This document shows positions 5,101 to 23,959 of a DNA stretch of 26,259 nucleotides, piece by piece. Every line of letters begins with the position of its first letter. The first letter of the stretch is position 1. Origin of the DNA: a virus. A program made the position numbers and the translations under genes. The notes beneath the pieces were generated by a model that was not told where the DNA came from, did no database searches, and was given only the letters and a program-made list of their open reading frames with translations. Where the stretch lies: positions 1 to 26,259 of the IMG/VR virus record IMGVR_UViG_3300010883_000374; one strand, given 5' to 3'.

Positions 5101-6692
5101 TTACTATCCATAACAGTAACTTGTATTGCTCCATCAGTTCCTCCTTGTGTGCTACAATGTGTAACGTAATCTATATTTAATTGTAAATTGTTACAATCTG
5201 TACAACAAGCTCCATTATTCCAAGTAGCTAATTGAGGATTAGCAATATAATTAACTCCATTGACATTTGTTAAATCAGTACTTGAACAATCTACATATGT
5301 AAATCCATAGTAATCAGATGAACCTGAATCTATACAAGCATCAAATGCTATTGGTGGTGGTGGAGCTCCTGTACAATCTGGAGTATTTTCTGCAAATACA
5401 TGTACAGTACTAAATCTAAAATTATTTCCTCCACCCATATAAGGGTTAAAAGCTTGAAGAGGCGCTTGATAAATAGGAACTGTTAATTGACTTTCTGCGT
5501 ATTGATAAGAATTTCCTGATATATTTTGATCTAACCAAACTTCAGGAGATAGCCCATTAACAAGCGTGTTTCCATGAAGATTAGATATAATTCCTTTATA
5601 ATGTTGCTCTCCTACTACATTTTCTGCGGGTGACCCTACAGGTCCAAAATCAAAAGGACCATCATTACTATCGTAACTAAAATCATAAAATCTATAATTA
5701 TTCCAAGTAGTATTATTAAAATATCCTTCAGAAACATTTGGTCCAAAATTTGTATTACCTGGTAAAGGATTTATACCATTAGGAATTACTTCTTCAAAAA
5801 ATCCTGCAAAAATATAACTTGAATGTTGATTACCTGAATATGTTACATAATTTAAAGATTCAGATGTAAGAGTAGGCCCACCTTGTAATGCACTGTCTCC
5901 TTCACATGAGTCAGCCCTAGTACTATCCATATAAACTTGATGACTTGCACCATTCATATCTAAATAAGCAGCTCCTGGAAGTAATACTTGAAAATCTTTA
6001 AAATCTCCACTTGACCAAATAACTCTTATTTCACGATAAAATCCTAATTCTGGTAAAGCTGAGCTATTATTTTCATATTCAATATAAAATCTATTTGTTG
6101 CAGGATTACTATTTATAACTAAACTTTCTCCAAAAGCTAATGATAAAGTTTTAACTTGGAACCCATCATCATAATTAATTCCTACTGGAAAATTATATTC
6201 AGGTTGACCAGATAAAACAGTACCCTGTGCGTCTGTATGATATGGTGCTCCTGATCCTGGATTAGTTATATCACAAATAGCAATTACAGAATCAAAATAT
6301 GAATTAACTACAAGTGAACCTGTGTTATGATCTTCATCAACTACAAACTCATTAACATAAATTCTTATAAATGAAGAATTACCACCTCCGTCCATGTATG
6401 GACCTGCATGTAATTGTATATGTTTAGGTGAGCCAGCTGGTGGAGGTGATCCAAAACTTTGGCTCATTCTCCCCATTGTAGTTTGGTTAGGATTACCTAC
6501 ATAAGGTTGTACTCTTAAATATTTTCCCCCTGTACCACTTACTGCCTGTCTTGCTTGAGAACTTTCTGAAGAGCTAGTATTTTCATTTGATTTTTGAGAA
6601 TTTTCTCCTGATGAAGATTCTTGTCCTCCATCGCCACCTCCAGATTCCTCAGCAGCTCCCATATCATAAAAAATTGGAAATAATTTAAACAT
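2139..6692 (-). CDS. Giant repeat-containing tail/adhesin protein
   Basis: A 1517-aa protein. A Ser/Gly/Glu-rich low-complexity stretch occupies residues ~13-55. The first ~430 residues are beta-rich. Cys-containing Ig-like or PKD-like segments follow, in which phrases such as 'ITIGSPTYGCIDP' link modules. Seven copies of a ~21-residue repeat, consensus GCTDPxAxNYNPxAxxDDGSC, occur: one near residues 670-700 and six at about 1010-1280. This repeat is frequent in secreted Bacteroidota proteins. The paired Cys and DDGS acid cluster suggest disulfides and/or a Ca2+ loop (inference). The C-terminus (after ~1285) is a separate Cys-rich domain. Its position between a Cys-rich 176-aa protein and a fibre suggests a receptor-binding or adhesin subunit. 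No signal peptide is present, as expected for a virion protein. Confidence 0.75.
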   Translation of the reverse strand: MFKLFPIFYDMGAAEESGGGDGGQESSSGENSQKSNENTSSSESSQARQAVSGTGGKYLRVQPYVGNPNQTTMGRMSQSFGSPPPAGSPKHIQLHAGPYMDGGGNSSFIRIYVNEFVVDEDHNTGSLVVNSYFDSVIAICDITNPGSGAPYHTDAQGTVLSGQPEYNFPVGINYDDGFQVKTLSLAFGESLVINSNPATNRFYIEYENNSSALPELGFYREIRVIWSSGDFKDFQVLLPGAAYLDMNGASHQVYMDSTRADSCEGDSALQGGPTLTSESLNYVTYSGNQHSSYIFAGFFEEVIPNGINPLPGNTNFGPNVSEGYFNNTTWNNYRFYDFSYDSNDGPFDFGPVGSPAENVVGEQHYKGIISNLHGNTLVNGLSPEVWLDQNISGNSYQYAESQLTVPIYQAPLQAFNPYMGGGNNFRFSTVHVFAENTPDCTGAPPPPIAFDACIDSGSSDYYGFTYVDCSSTDLTNVNGVNYIANPQLATWNNGACCTDCNNLQLNIDYVTHCSTQGGTDGAIQVTVMDSNGNSTGNPKYTYVIQALNSTTVLGLGSAGAILGASGQPVGSSLGDGTSYTWGFNVDLFQDASLFPQNTATAGSNVLSVVVGGNTNVLVPASTVNGTATTGLIAGCYRLYVYDQSVNAANSTTPCFASIDVCIQDGVGVIGCTDNSASTNFGTALNYNANAVLDDGSCQYCHASNGTLIDSLGNLIPTAGDIAVSGINSFLATPTQRTNSNDGSVVIQNVSPTLDFQAYINNIVNASGVVNVDFTLRLYKATSEVDYDNALGSLTPNDLTNFTAQAAAVNNNNMGWAYTYNTTTLGANMNYGYYAVQVAVSDPDAVVEIEQCFQVFYFVIPIEVCVDPSNNFATALTDTNTPPGTLVISDPRLWHSNPSICTVINNFCCDPVTLANPNQGLCNINQIVASFYCDPIPSFLSWDLEYNDNGTWTPLSAGTVVPTSNSHTVTYNQASTVSVTTFVDDGNYRITHTSSYVGAADCTVTSAVITIGSPTYGCIDPVAQNYNSLATCDDGSCTYCIYGCMDSTATNYNPLATCDDGSCSAPVYGCTDPTASNYNSNATVDDGSCLYGIPGCTDTAAYNFNKNCANQTVTASIDDGCCFYPCDPTTQPAASTFVIIDATGTCGGSNADGSIAVTTFFDQGVMAGQTKTISYYTNSGVLIYTDPTTYSNANSPNHFNTWTYSLFLPGVYSSVISDNFGCQETVSFSIGSAAGNCGCTDPNAQNYDATAVLDDGSCLYDGCTDPNALNYNPNAATDDGSCIYPVVTNPCIPTYTNDLIDLLQACVAKNGFRYYNKLVTGQADDCSVLNTWKVILIEYLVSKRGNSCIFNCADSLTTGLATLSSCSSKWVTGGPATGINDAAYPGSSITTGQGTTITDPNLFFAQGTDLFTGDVIKMPSGLVYELVTVYGSCGYGCYSPESAQGARTGNWRQCVVHAQVTSFNNNINYLDKFNTFVTSFCVDCGIEDENVIKTPRIQNQNRSKRGGLSIDGINGLEI
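2850..3650 (-). repeat. Six GCTDPxAxNYNPxAxxDDGSC coding repeats
   Basis: Six degenerate 63-nt coding units lie within the 1517-aa gene. The cleanest are 2850-2912 and 2922-2984, each exactly 21 codons from Gly-Cys to Ser-Cys. A longer variant with an insertion (GCTDTAAYNFN..., ending DDGCC) lies around 3330-3413. Three close copies follow, with the last ending near 3650. A seventh copy lies apart near 4597-4688. The units differ at many codons, so they are old protein repeats rather than fresh DNA duplications. Confidence 0.85.
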
Positions 6693-18614: not shown

Positions 18615-18953
18615 CTATAGATAATTACATATATCATATAAGCTATATTTTAAAGTTAATTCTTGACCTGCTTCTATTTTATGTAGCGTTTTTAATTTTT
18701 TATAATGGTAATCATGATTATCTTCTATCAATTCACAATTTGCTTTTTCACTATGATTAATAAAACCACCTAAAGGTGTTCTTATAAAATTGTGTTGAAA
18801 TTCTGGGTCATACACATGACTAATACCTATAACTACCTCTCCCGGAATATCTTCTTTGGCTAGGATCCCTACTCCGTGAATGTCTGATGGTCCTATCGTT
18901 AAGTATTCTGGTAGAGGGTTATAAGGTTCTTTTTCTTCGCATTTTTCTTTCAT
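18615..18953 (-). CDS. SET-domain protein, putative protein lysine methyltransferase
   Basis: A 112-aa protein consisting of little more than a SET domain. The order of motifs is diagnostic: IHGVGILAKEDIPGEVVIG (GxG..A...I..G), GGFINHSEKANCEL (NHSxxxNc, the SAM/knot motif) and KIEAGQELTLKYSLYDI (I.aGeELTl.Y). The usual final DY is KYS here, which may alter activity. No pre-SET or zinc-binding post-SET region is present, as in other minimal viral or bacterial SET proteins. SET enzymes transfer methyl from SAM to protein lysines. Here the target could be a virion or host protein (unknown). One nucleotide separates it from the terminase stop, so it is co-expressed with packaging genes. Confidence 0.85.
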   Translation of the reverse strand: MKEKCEEKEPYNPLPEYLTIGPSDIHGVGILAKEDIPGEVVIGISHVYDPEFQHNFIRTPLGGFINHSEKANCELIEDNHDYHYKKLKTLHKIEAGQELTLKYSLYDICNYL

Positions 18954-18954
18954 A

Positions 18955-20919
18955 TTAATAATAGTTTTGTTGAAACCATTTATCTGTAGATCTATCTTCT
19001 AATATATCTTTAACTTCAGTGTTATATAATTCTCTTGTATGGTACATGCCTATCATAAATGACATCACACGGTCAAAATTTCCTGAATGATTAAATTTAA
19101 TTAGTTCTGTTAACAGAGCTGGATCATATATTTTGTGCAAATTTAGTAATTTTTTTCCAGTTTCGTCTTTACTCCTAACTGTATTAAGCCAATCCCTTAT
19201 ATATATCTCACCTTGACGCTTACGTGCCTCAGTCATATGCATACCATATTGACGCTTTACAGTTTTACTTCTTAATTCTTTTTTATCTAACATTTCAAAC
19301 TCTTCTTGCAATTTATGCATTTTTCTAAACCTTTTTGCATAAGCTATTACTTCTCCTCGATCATTTTCAAATCCTATCTTACATCCATAATAGTCTGCTA
19401 ACATAAACAAATTTCTATTATAATCATCTTGTGTATGCGGTCTACCAACATATGATGCTACAATTATATCATCAGGTTGAGATAAATTGTTAGGTCTTTT
19501 TAATACATAAGCTGATCCTAAAGACATAGAGTCTGCAGATTGATTTTGTCCATATGGATCATGACAAATTACATATAAATTCATAGGAACTTGCTGTTCT
19601 TGATTTTTATAAGGAGCTTCATATATTACAACTGCTCCTGTTTTATCATCATCCTTTCTATGTGGGTATTTAACTATAGGTCTTAAGTCTCCATCTATTT
19701 TAAACTTAACTTTTCCTTTTTTATCATGATAAAAAGTACCTGCTGTACCTATAGATTGTAAATTTCTTGCTTTTACATTATTATACTGTTCTTGCAATGA
19801 TGCAATATCAAATAAATTAGCAGTAACTTGTAATGTAGCTTCTTGAGGAGAAAAAGGATGCTCAGCTATATATTGGTCTAACGATTTTGCATCTGCAGCA
19901 CCCTTCTTCTTTTCCCTCATTTGTTCTTCGTACTCTATAGCTTCTTGTGCTATAGAATTACCATCTTCATCTATAAATCCATCTAAGTTTTTTTGTATAG
20001 GTATAAAATATCCACATTTTGTACCCATAGCTCCTTCATCCCATACATTTTCATAGTCCATACAGTCATATGCTGCTGGATTGTAAAATATTTCTTCCAT
20101 AGCTTCAAAATCAGAACCTTCTGTACCACCTGTACCAAATGCTACCATCATTCCTAATGTTTTAGAACCTTGTCTCATTGTAGGCATTGTTACTTCCCAT
20201 GCTTTTAATAATCCTGGGAAAGAACCTGCTTCTTCAAAGAACACTAGCTCCCCTGCTTTACCCCTTACTTTATCTGGGTTATCTTTTAGTGATACTCCTA
20301 TAATTTGAGACTTCATACCCATTTCTATCTCTAATCCGTTTACTTTTTTCTTGTATCCAGACATTTTATGCATTTCTCTATCTCTTAAACGTGGTTGAGC
20401 CCATGCTGTGTGATCATCTATAAAAGATAAAAACTCCCAAGCTTTTGAGAGTAGTCCATCACCAATTAAGAATTCTTTAGAAGATGCAAATACAAAGTTT
20501 TTACTATTTCTAACAAAAAAGTAGTTTCTAGCAAGCATTGATCCAGCTTTGTAAGAGTATCCCTTACGCCTTGCTTTTAATACAATCATATGTTTGTTTG
20601 ATGCCCTTGCTTTATCTATCTCATGGAAATACTGATAGTCTCCATCATAAAATCTAGGGAATGTACGTTCACGTCTAGCTTGTATTGTACCATCTGGCAT
20701 TAACTCATCTACAGCTCTATCAATTGGACAATAGTTTAAATAAAAATAGTGGAATCCAGTAACATGTAGTTCATCTACAGTGTAACCATACATACATCTC
20801 TTTTGCTCTTCGTCCCAAAACTCATAATACTCTCTAGTACCAGGTAATGCAGCTGTGTAATGTCCGTATTCTATAAATTTAACCGCGGAGGCTCTGACTC
20901 TATCAGTGTTTTTGAGCAT
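18955..20919 (-). CDS. terL: Terminase large subunit (ATPase-nuclease)
   Basis: A 654-aa packaging motor. The ATPase domain has a Walker A-type segment LKARRKGYSYKAG (~114-126), Walker B with catalytic acid ELVFFEEAGSFP (~224-235) and a coupling motif FGTGG (~261-265). The RNase H-like nuclease has its acids at ICHDPYG (D~454), GFENDRGEV (E~518) and NFDRVMSFMIGM (D~617). KVRGKAGELVFFEEAGSFPG closely recalls terminases of crAss-like and related Bacteroidota phages. It moves DNA into the prohead through the portal and cuts concatemers. The start at 20919 overlaps the 99-aa gene by 49 nt; a later start cannot be excluded, but the N-terminal helix looks conserved in character. Confidence 0.93.
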   Translation of the reverse strand: MLKNTDRVRASAVKFIEYGHYTAALPGTREYYEFWDEEQKRCMYGYTVDELHVTGFHYFYLNYCPIDRAVDELMPDGTIQARRERTFPRFYDGDYQYFHEIDKARASNKHMIVLKARRKGYSYKAGSMLARNYFFVRNSKNFVFASSKEFLIGDGLLSKAWEFLSFIDDHTAWAQPRLRDREMHKMSGYKKKVNGLEIEMGMKSQIIGVSLKDNPDKVRGKAGELVFFEEAGSFPGLLKAWEVTMPTMRQGSKTLGMMVAFGTGGTEGSDFEAMEEIFYNPAAYDCMDYENVWDEGAMGTKCGYFIPIQKNLDGFIDEDGNSIAQEAIEYEEQMREKKKGAADAKSLDQYIAEHPFSPQEATLQVTANLFDIASLQEQYNNVKARNLQSIGTAGTFYHDKKGKVKFKIDGDLRPIVKYPHRKDDDKTGAVVIYEAPYKNQEQQVPMNLYVICHDPYGQNQSADSMSLGSAYVLKRPNNLSQPDDIIVASYVGRPHTQDDYNRNLFMLADYYGCKIGFENDRGEVIAYAKRFRKMHKLQEEFEMLDKKELRSKTVKRQYGMHMTEARKRQGEIYIRDWLNTVRSKDETGKKLLNLHKIYDPALLTELIKFNHSGNFDRVMSFMIGMYHTRELYNTEVKDILEDRSTDKWFQQNYY

Positions 20920-22795: not shown

Positions 22796-23031
22796 TTCTT
22801 AATTATTTTAACTGTTCCATTTGTATTAATTTCAATAACAGATGTCTTAGATTGTTTATTAAATTCTGTAACATATGGTGATATATCTGTACGAGTTACC
22901 ATAAATGATAAAAAAACTTGCAGTTCTTTAAGAAGACGGTCAGTTTTTTCTTGACTTTCAAGAGATATTATCTTGGAATCTATTAAAGCGTGGTAATCTT
23001 CTAAATTTAATGTTACTTGACCTTTTACCAC
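22792..23031 (-). CDS. 79-aa helical hypothetical protein
   Basis: A 79-aa protein with an N-terminal strand-turn (KGQVTLNLEDYHALID), a central coiled-coil-like helix (LESQEKTDRLLKELQVFLSF) and a C-terminal beta hairpin (TSVIEINTNGTVKIIKK). 'VTLNLEDYHALID' resembles the start of several small phage proteins, a 'v.l.l.dY..L' strand and helix, but I cannot assign a function. It overlaps the co-chaperonin gene by 7 nt, so it is in the same operon. Confidence 0.6.
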   Translation of the reverse strand: MVKGQVTLNLEDYHALIDSKIISLESQEKTDRLLKELQVFLSFMVTRTDISPYVTEFNKQSKTSVIEINTNGTVKIIKK

Positions 23032-23294
23032 TTACCTAAAATCTGGTGTTCTGATATAGTTAAGTATAACTTTTTATCAATCTCTACTATTGCAGCTTCT
23101 GCTCTAGGATCTACCATTACAGTATCTCCTACCTCTACAAATTGGCAATGAGGACCAACAGCTAAAGCTTCTAATACGTTAGATTTTTTTGAGTTTTGTA
23201 AGGCAGTTGCCTCATCAAGGATAATTCCTGATTCTGTTTCTTTAATTACTGGGTTTGGTAGTACTATCCAGCTTCCACTTGGTTTAAAATTCAT
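23025..23294 (-). CDS. GroES-like co-chaperonin
   Basis: An 89-aa protein, close in size to bacterial GroES (about 95 aa). The order of elements fits Cpn10: MNFKPSGSWIVLPNPVIKET (first strands), ETESGIILDEA (mobile loop with the hydrophobic GIIL that docks into GroEL), LEALAVGPHCQFVEVGDTVM (V.avG...... vkvGD.V) and LYLTISEHQILGKW (y....e.dILg). A roof-loop region is reduced. Phage-encoded co-chaperonins such as T4 gp31 work with host GroEL to fold capsid protein. Here it probably serves the major capsid protein, encoded downstream in the same direction. It is preceded by the best promoter in the window. Confidence 0.82.
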   Translation of the reverse strand: MNFKPSGSWIVLPNPVIKETESGIILDEATALQNSKKSNVLEALAVGPHCQFVEVGDTVMVDPRAEAAIVEIDKKLYLTISEHQILGKW

Positions 23295-23311: not shown

Positions 23312-23344
23312 CAAATATATAAATTATTTTTTTACAATTCCAAA
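23312..23344 (-). promoter_or_regulatory. Bacteroidota sigma-type promoter of the co-chaperonin/packaging operon
   Basis: The minus strand has TTTG (23344-23341), a 21-nt spacer, and TATATTTG (23319-23312), an exact TAnnTTTG. This is a nearly complete match to the -33/-7 consensus of Bacteroidota. The inferred start lies about 10 nt upstream of the GroES-like ATG. It probably drives the gene series from the co-chaperonin through at least the terminase. Confidence 0.7.
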
Positions 23345-23355
23345 TGTTTAGAAAA

Positions 23356-23544
23356 TTATTTTTTTCTTAAGGTTGCTTCAGTTCTTATTAAGTTAGGAAA
23401 TCCTTTAAAGCTCACGTCTGCTTCTTTCATGTATTTCCCACATTCACATTTAGATTCAACTGTCCGCACCTTTCCGTCAATAACTTTAATAGTTAAAGTA
23501 GATAGTTCTTTTGATTCCCCACATTCACATATATATTTAGGCAT
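23356..23544 (-). CDS. Small zinc-ribbon protein
   Basis: A 62-aa protein with two CxC pairs: ICECGES (C6, C8) and SKCECGKYM (C33, C35), separated by 24 residues with beta-strands between, a compact zinc ribbon. The C-terminus is basic (RTEATLRKK). It is the first gene of the leftward block and follows the long structured leader, so it may be made early or be controlled by that leader. A regulator or nucleic-acid-binding role is inferred from the fold only. Confidence 0.68.
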   Translation of the reverse strand: MPKYICECGESKELSTLTIKVIDGKVRTVESKCECGKYMKEADVSFKGFPNLIRTEATLRKK

Positions 23545-23549
23545 TGTAA

Positions 23550-23796
23550 TTTGAATATAGTTATCCCCCTTCAGGTTTTTGTTTCAAGTTTGATTTCGTT
23601 CTAACAGTGCTCCTAACGGACCCAAGGATACTAAGACTGATGTTAATTCACCGCACACTTTACTTATGTGCAATGTACCCTAGCTAGACTTTATACTTTA
23701 ACTCTTTTGTAACTACCGGAGAAAATCTCACTCTTATTTAGAGTTACCAATCCGATGTCTTTTCCCTTGTCTGGTTACCGAGGGATGATATTGTTA
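23550..23796 (-). ncRNA. Structured leader or small RNA upstream of the zinc-ribbon gene
   Basis: Downstream of the -7 element the minus strand is less AT-rich than the genes and folds by hand. Stem AUCGGA (23756-23751) pairs with UCCGGU (23720-23715), enclosing hairpin ACUCU/AGAGU (23744-23730). GGGUAC (23680-23675) pairs with GUAUCC (23631-23626), enclosing GCACA/UGUGC (23671-23653). A closing pairing of AAUAU-AUCCC (23792-23782) with GGGAU-AUAUU (23567-23554) is possible and competes with a UCCCU/AGGGA hairpin. I do not recognise a known riboswitch, tmRNA or RNase P signature. Ends are approximate. Confidence 0.5.
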
Positions 23797-23804
23797 CAGT
23801 GCAA
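23797..23804 (-). promoter_or_regulatory. -7 element of the leader RNA promoter
   Basis: The minus strand reads TATATCTTTGCAC, containing TATCTTTG, an exact TAnnTTTG match. Upstream is a T-rich run with TTTG, but at only 14 nt spacing rather than 19-21, so the -33 part is weak. Position and orientation fit transcription of the structured leader and the 62-aa gene. Confidence 0.5.
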
Positions 23805-23886
23805 AGATATAAAAACTTTCTATCAAAAAATAAAATTACCCTAAAATTTTTTTTAACAGGGTTTGTGAACGTATGAACCAACACAA

Positions 23887-23911
23887 TCAAAGACCCCCGC
23901 TATGTAACGCA
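23887..23911 (+). repeat. 25-bp intergenic repeat, copy 1
   Basis: TCAAAGACCCCCGCTATGTA followed by ACGCA. It matches copy 2 at 24263-24287 at 21 of 25 positions, with identical TCAAAGAC and GCTATGTAA blocks. It lies 48 bp upstream of the 84-aa gene. CACAATCAAA precedes or overlaps it here and recurs exactly at 24243-24252. Confidence 0.75.
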
Positions 23912-23959
23912 CTTAAAATACCCCGCATTGGAGTATTGGTGTAAAAACATATTCGTCCT

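Follow-up and report, generated by a model that had tools for sequence, protein, structure and literature searches.

On its minus strand, at positions 23554-23801, a virus fragment of 26,259 bases (the window, by which the whole stretch of DNA analysed is meant) encodes a structured phage RNA of a separate family that had not been filed before. That a real structured RNA exists at this site is as good as certain. It lies where a first-pass annotation had placed a minus-strand structured RNA, at a divergent control region upstream of the leftward gene block. Its most probable role, put at about 0.45, would be that of a phage non-coding RNA that is a gene product in its own right, with transcription starting at a promoter of its own and carrying on into cargo genes. 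Common crAss-like viruses thus appear to carry an undescribed RNA part and, with a fold conserved over at least 123 distinct sequences together with a covariation model, a place, a strand and invariant segments, what was an unannotated gap becomes an object that can be assayed. It may bring to light either a novel means of driving a long late gene block or a novel host-directed phage RNA.

Structure and Covariation

The fold comprises nine helices and 44 pairs, with 96.5% of cells paired over the 49 sequences of an alignment (A1) made with MAFFT without structural guidance, compared with 87.4% in shuffles and 40-46% when one side was slid by 1-3 columns. None of 500 shuffles matched the observed pairing or covariation score of A1, in which 23 of the 44 pairs show changes on both sides. 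Significance was assessed with a tree-aware null in which each column's own substitutions were re-thrown on the tree (a custom substitute for R-scape), and with 60 and 40 null alignments, which grade E-values down to about 0.02, seven significant covarying column pairs were obtained from 49 sequences, all seven inside the fold, and nine from 123 sequences. All nine fall in helices P2, P4, P5, P6b, P7 and P9, the long-range P5 included, and are standard pairs in 90-100% of cells. Compensatory changes therefore exceed what phylogeny alone gives; the check for such changes in homologues that the first-pass annotation had proposed was strongly positive, and the several stems it had noted are real. 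The single-sequence folding energy carried no signal on either strand (z = -0.04 for the minus strand and 0.14 for the plus strand), and a single-sequence fold would have revealed none of this structure.

Three column pairs of A1 are mostly G-U (54 with 95, 108 with 247 and 196 with 221), and since majority G-U pairs would be A-C on the other strand, the RNA is assigned to the minus strand of the window, which is the strand of the late block. Such pairs on one strand, with the compensatory changes, also tell against a signal at the DNA level or a coding one (a promoter cluster, a replication origin or a small ORF), a reading to which the divergent junction and a nucleotide conservation reaching upstream into the promoter region had lent some appeal. 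Coding by the 3′ half was considered and rejected, as 64 of 95 homologues interrupt the sole open-looking frame (GGT GAA TTA ACA), in which variation is greater at first codon positions than at third. The covariation refutes the DNA or coding reading in the main, leaving it scarcely credible. The region was correctly described at the outset as non-coding and comparatively GC-rich, with 36-40% GC against 25-33% in most flanking stretches.

All the helices are on the minus strand. Helix P2 (23763-23785) joins 23785-23782 to 23766-23763 (UCCC/GGGA) around a loop with CGGUAACC; it is paired in 49 of 49 sequences, its base pair being U-A, C-G or G-C, and is significant in both the 49- and the 123-sequence tests. 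P3 (23715-23756) pairs 23756-23751 with 23720-23715 (AUCGGA/UCCGGU), with the invariant UUUUCUCC at 23725-23718, and is likewise paired in 49 of 49 with a change from C-G to U-A in a distant clade. The hairpin P4 (23731-23743; 23743-23740 with 23734-23731, loop AAAUA) changes on both sides in all four of its pairs, with up to 28-30 substitutions per side. One clade (L195, L075, L226, L124 and L236) has in place of P4 an insertion of about 65-70 nt that may itself form stems, and P3 is still found there in a third form, GUGGGA/UCCCAC, as seen in L195, L075 and L226. Distant clades have an extra 5′ hairpin of varying sequence, identified by eye as ACUC/GAGU, ACAC/GUGU or ACUU/AAGU.

The 3′ domain is closed by the long-range helix P5 (23586-23704), in which 23704-23700 (GAGUU) pairs with 23590-23586 (AACUU) and which occurs as GAGU/ACUU, GAAC/GUUU and GAGC/GCUU. 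A local hairpin, GAGU/ACUC, was considered in its place and rejected, being inconsistent across sequences where the long-range P5 is significant in the 123-sequence test. Within the domain, P6a (23600-23688; 23688-23684 with 23604-23600) is paired in 98% of cells with both-side changes in four pairs, and P6b (23625-23681; 23681-23675 with 23631-23625) is 100% paired and holds two significant pairs, with 23675/23631 being G-C, C-G, G-U or A-U. The hairpin P7 (23653-23671; 23671-23668 with 23656-23653, GCAC/GUGC) has a significant base that is G-C, A-U or U-A. P8 (23639-23652; 23652-23649 with 23642-23639, loop AAUUAA) is 100% paired, forms part of the invariant UGAAUUAACA (23650-23641) and has one pair that is G-C, A-U or G-U, while in P9 (23609-23621; 23621-23620 with 23610-23609 and 23618-23617 with 23613-23612) the pair 23618/23612 is C-G, U-A, G-C or A-U and significant. 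The alignment further shows a near-invariant 3′ tail, AAGGGGGA (23564-23571), outside every covarying helix, which with UUUUCUCC, GUAUAA and UGAAUUAACA makes up the invariant segments of the folded core. A hairpin of the tail with the sequence that follows was set aside, since by eye it works in some sequences and fails in others.

The Proposed Gate

Two mutually exclusive pairings had been proposed from the single sequence, UCCCU with the nearby AGGGA and AUCCC with the GGGAU near the next gene. The first is P2, which with its three pair types at the base stands; the second, which was to act as a gate, is not borne out. Although AUCCC/GGGAU can form in the window, over the 49 sequences its outer pair is lost in 30 and the next in 9, with the other three pairs resting on nearly constant letters. 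Changes in the AUCCC strand are matched by changes in the 3′ strand of P2, the hairpin to which it belongs, and the G-run is nearly invariant. With the alternative pairs lost in homologues and the AUCCC strand co-varying with its local hairpin partner, the gate is unsupported, and the 49 sequences hold no two exclusive pairings that are both conserved, as a riboswitch or switching leader would. A transient contact between the C-run and the G-run may occur.

The motif GCACTGT does occur twice as had been remarked, at 23802-23796 and 23610-23604, but as a repeat it is incidental. Shuffles of the same 255 bases hold 2.8 repeated 7-mers on average, and in homologues the 5′ copy varies freely, the 3′ copy alone being conserved (89 of 95), inside a helix.

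Distribution and Phage Context

Homologous loci were gathered first through the zinc ribbon and terminase and then through DNA patterns drawn from the RNA itself, the latter being independent of gene context. The nhmmer profile, whose model span (23555-23809) takes in the -7 element upstream of an RNA of about 240 nt, matches the window at E 3e-69, and it found 148 loci in uncultivated viral contigs and 207 after a second round, which is a count of loci and not of phages since one contig can give several. At least 123 of the sequences are distinct, and 123 entered the largest covariation test. One credible copy per contig was found in 25 of 25 carrier contigs (28-107 kb, with some smaller ones of 26-28 kb); two weak extra matches at E 0.03-0.05 appeared in the copy-count scan and two more at E 0.08. 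A weaker DNA pattern also retrieved contigs that lack the RNA.

The window phage fits a crAss-like placement by its terminase large subunit (18955-20919, minus strand; PHROG 6681, E 2e-137), which is 42% identical to that of Crassvirales cr60_1, and the gene order GroES, HU-like protein, terminase, portal and major head protein is compatible with this. crAss-like phages are among the most abundant viruses known, and the carriers here are presumably marine, judging by their sample identifiers. The GroES-like co-chaperonin (23025-23294, minus strand; PHROG 3188, E 7.6e-11; Pfam Cpn10) opens the conserved gene block that runs on to the terminase. Between terminase and portal (18615-18953, minus strand) lies an ORF of 112 aa with SET-domain-like sequence, recognised by eye (GVGILAKEDI ... 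GGFINHSEKANCEL).

No match to the RNA was found at E <= 0.1 in cr60_1, cr1_1, crAss001, phi14:2, ProJPt-Bp1 or the related Fpv1, so that the family is known here from uncultivated contigs only and, on these six crAss-like or related genomes, is not a common feature of Crassvirales. Direct DNA search of named phages gave no match for the window and only short chance matches for two distant homologues. cr60_1 has a matching divergent junction (L240:4422-4802) with a GC-rich hairpin-like stretch and conserved AU-rich DNA that is partly common to nearby gut phages; this was rejected as an RNA site, the conserved DNA being mostly AU-rich and shared by few phages, with no trace of the RNA. The first genome pattern gave no cellular match in the genome collection. 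The cellular matches to the genome-collection pattern, at least 120 stretches, all of those listed from Prochlorococcus or relatives, were dismissed as a chance match to one conserved locus, and among the matches listed none fits the RNA profile.

In the divergent member L305 (E 1.8e-13; crAss-like contig of 106,836 bases) the RNA comes straight after a tRNA array and precedes an exonuclease-like gene and a crAss-type tail ring protein. The array (L305:232-2601) holds eight predicted tRNA genes just before the RNA, one of them with a CUA anticodon and called tRNA-Pyl by ARAGORN. In L257 (E 1e-27) the RNA precedes a GroES/GroEL operon, its genes identified by eye.

Promoters and Downstream Genes

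The TAnnTTTG promoter element pointed out in the first-pass annotation is present as TATCTTTG at 23809-23802 on the minus strand, just upstream of the RNA, and was kept in 111 of 123 distinct homologues. It is predicted from sequence as the -7 element of the RNA's promoter, which from the consensus we take to be of Bacteroidota type, and transcription would start at about 23797-23795. In L162, L182 and L264 the RNA follows a short ORF with no promoter of its own visible. One clade (L130, at 5764-5913, L194, L140, L171 and L216) has a short ORF of 49-73 aa, with cysteine and an ENCGS ending, immediately upstream of the RNA and in the same orientation. Across the promoter lies a second conserved stretch (23843-23953), probably control DNA for the rightward genes; in several phages (L055, L066, L091, L109 and L128) insertions of about 140-420 nt intervene between it and the RNA. 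Neither a terminator nor a defined 3′ end was found downstream of the RNA.

In 196 of 207 loci GroES is encoded on the same strand no more than 3 kb downstream; most of the others stop at a contig border. The next ORF is one of at least ten unrelated ones, GroES in about half or more of distinct loci. Where it is another, it usually starts 5-40 nt past the RNA, and those named by eye include structural proteins (xIRTEQ, MLGLG), a zinc ribbon, MGKSKPKNPSLW, a short protein with a membrane anchor and a SET-like protein. The SET-like ORF that comes after the RNA in L270 is similar to the window's ORF at 18615-18953. The zinc-ribbon ORF (23356-23544, minus strand; 62 aa) that directly follows the RNA in the window phage is one of many alternative cargo ORFs and takes this place in 9 of about 130 distinct loci. 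A second predicted promoter of Bacteroidota type (TTTGG ... TATATTTG; 23312-23344, minus strand) precedes GroES, and a TAnnTTTG element stands between RNA and GroES in 58 of 58 distinct GroES-first loci, where 3.7 would be expected. In the window it sits between zinc ribbon and GroES, and the zinc ribbon thus has the look of cargo inserted downstream of the RNA and ahead of this promoter.

These arrangements bear on the initial proposal of a fold that could gate expression downstream, taken here as a leader, riboswitch or protein-bound, gating translation of the next gene. The zinc-ribbon ATG lies about 20 nt past GGGGGA in the window, several other ORFs begin 5-40 nt after the RNA, and AAGGGGG in the tail could pair with the anti-Shine-Dalgarno sequence, all of which would suit such a leader. 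Against this, the proposed switch helix fails in homologues, the AU-rich stretch that follows the tail shows no covarying helix to hide a start codon, the gene that comes next is not a conserved one, and in about half of distinct loci it is GroES with a promoter of its own. With a second promoter and changing next genes a single-gene switch is unlikely. A switch for the zinc-ribbon gene is thus unsupported, that gene being one of at least ten unrelated ones, as is the broader notion of a fold gating one downstream gene, given the second promoter before GroES. No constant or related next gene joined to the RNA without an intervening promoter was found, and the RNA is not a gene-specific leader; translational gating of whatever gene follows is distinctly improbable.

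Proposed Function

As an independent product, the RNA would be made from the host-type promoter, and its folded core, with the invariant UUUUCUCC, GUAUAA, UGAAUUAACA and AAGGGGGA, would be recognised by a protein or RNA partner, candidates being host RNA polymerase, the ribosome and the packaging machinery. It would then act in trans, the mode supposed for other compact phage RNAs, and the transcript would continue into whatever ORF sits between the RNA and the separate GroES promoter. As no terminator follows the RNA, such read-through into an inserted ORF would account for the variety of cargo genes. Many phages have nothing separating the RNA from the second promoter, so that the RNA's own promoter has no other exclusive product and the RNA itself is taken as the product. 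Support comes from the conservation of both promoters (111 of 123 and 58 of 58), the unrelated next ORFs and the single copy in 25 contigs, and the position of the L305 RNA, between a tRNA array and an exonuclease-like gene, was also counted in its favour. On the other side, with neither terminator nor defined 3′ end found, processing would be needed to yield a free RNA, in some phages (L162, L182 and L264) the RNA has no visible promoter of its own, and in nearly all loci that could be assessed it is oriented towards the virion genes, which would suit a cis element (GroES within 3 kb in 196 of 207, with L257 before its GroEL operon and L305 before structural genes). The bolder form of this idea, an RNA machine that works in trans and forms a separate class, for example by reprogramming the ribosome or RNA polymerase of the host towards making virions or by being built into the particle, is unlikely.

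The constant orientation into virion genes and the lack of a terminator would be fitted equally well by elongation control at the head of the operon, in which the nascent RNA would bind host RNA polymerase and make it resist pausing and termination over the late block, as put and EAR do. The RNA stands at the head of a long operon, with a host-type promoter close by and no terminator between; in almost all cases that could be assessed it leads the virion-gene block, in the same orientation, and it is indifferent to which gene comes next. In crAss001 the late genes probably require host RNA polymerase (PMC8375218), a dependence that a put-type element could serve. The second promoter in all 58 GroES-first loci would, however, start unmodified polymerases, and the RNA is larger than put or EAR, such that this alternative is possible but rather doubtful.

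Its place upstream of the terminase gene, on the late side, and its single copy per contig would allow a packaging or virion RNA by analogy with the pRNA of phi29. Such a role is very unlikely, the RNA having no match at E <= 0.1 in the six other crAss-like or related genomes with a related terminase and being unlike any Rfam family, and L305 having no recognised terminase among the genes right after the RNA. The chief rival of an RNA product is the elongation control described above.

Comparison with Known RNAs

None of the 4227 Rfam 15 families matched the window at the gathering threshold, and at E <= 10 the RNA region gave only chance matches (17 bits), which upholds the initial impression that it belongs to no recognisable riboswitch class. 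No structured RNA of crAss-like phages is described in the literature searched, a scope that leaves aside most subscription journals and preprint servers, and this silence is weak evidence of novelty. In five homologous loci Rfam gave only GOLLD and tRNA, both elsewhere in the loci.

GOLLD and ROOL are structured phage RNAs of unknown function often found near tRNA islands (PMC12286853). The divergent RNA at the tRNA array of L305 recalls this position, but GOLLD is often above 800 nt and ROOL about 660 nt against about 240 nt here, sequence and fold are unlike, and the present RNA fails their models, with no match to GOLLD (RF02032) at the RNA itself. GOLLD is encoded in 3 of 20 carrier crAss-like contigs (200-223 bits), on the opposite strand and 2-4 kb from the present RNA (L195:2283-2678, minus strand; G005:12186-12568; G006:2695-3086, minus strand), so that some crAss-like phages have two structured RNAs.

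The manA and wcaG motifs, candidate leader RNAs of marine phages, likewise lie upstream of phage genes in marine viruses, but they stand before particular cyanophage genes, whereas the present RNA precedes changing genes in crAss-like phages and no Rfam model fits it. The pRNA of phi29 is similarly a compact phage RNA encoded near packaging and structural genes, with no match in sequence or structure to the present RNA. By position, the RNA is likened to put of HK022 and EAR of Bacillus, which stand at the head of a phage or other long operon beside a host promoter and are indifferent to the next gene; those elements are smaller, whereas the present RNA, at about 240 nt and with nine helices, is followed by a second promoter.
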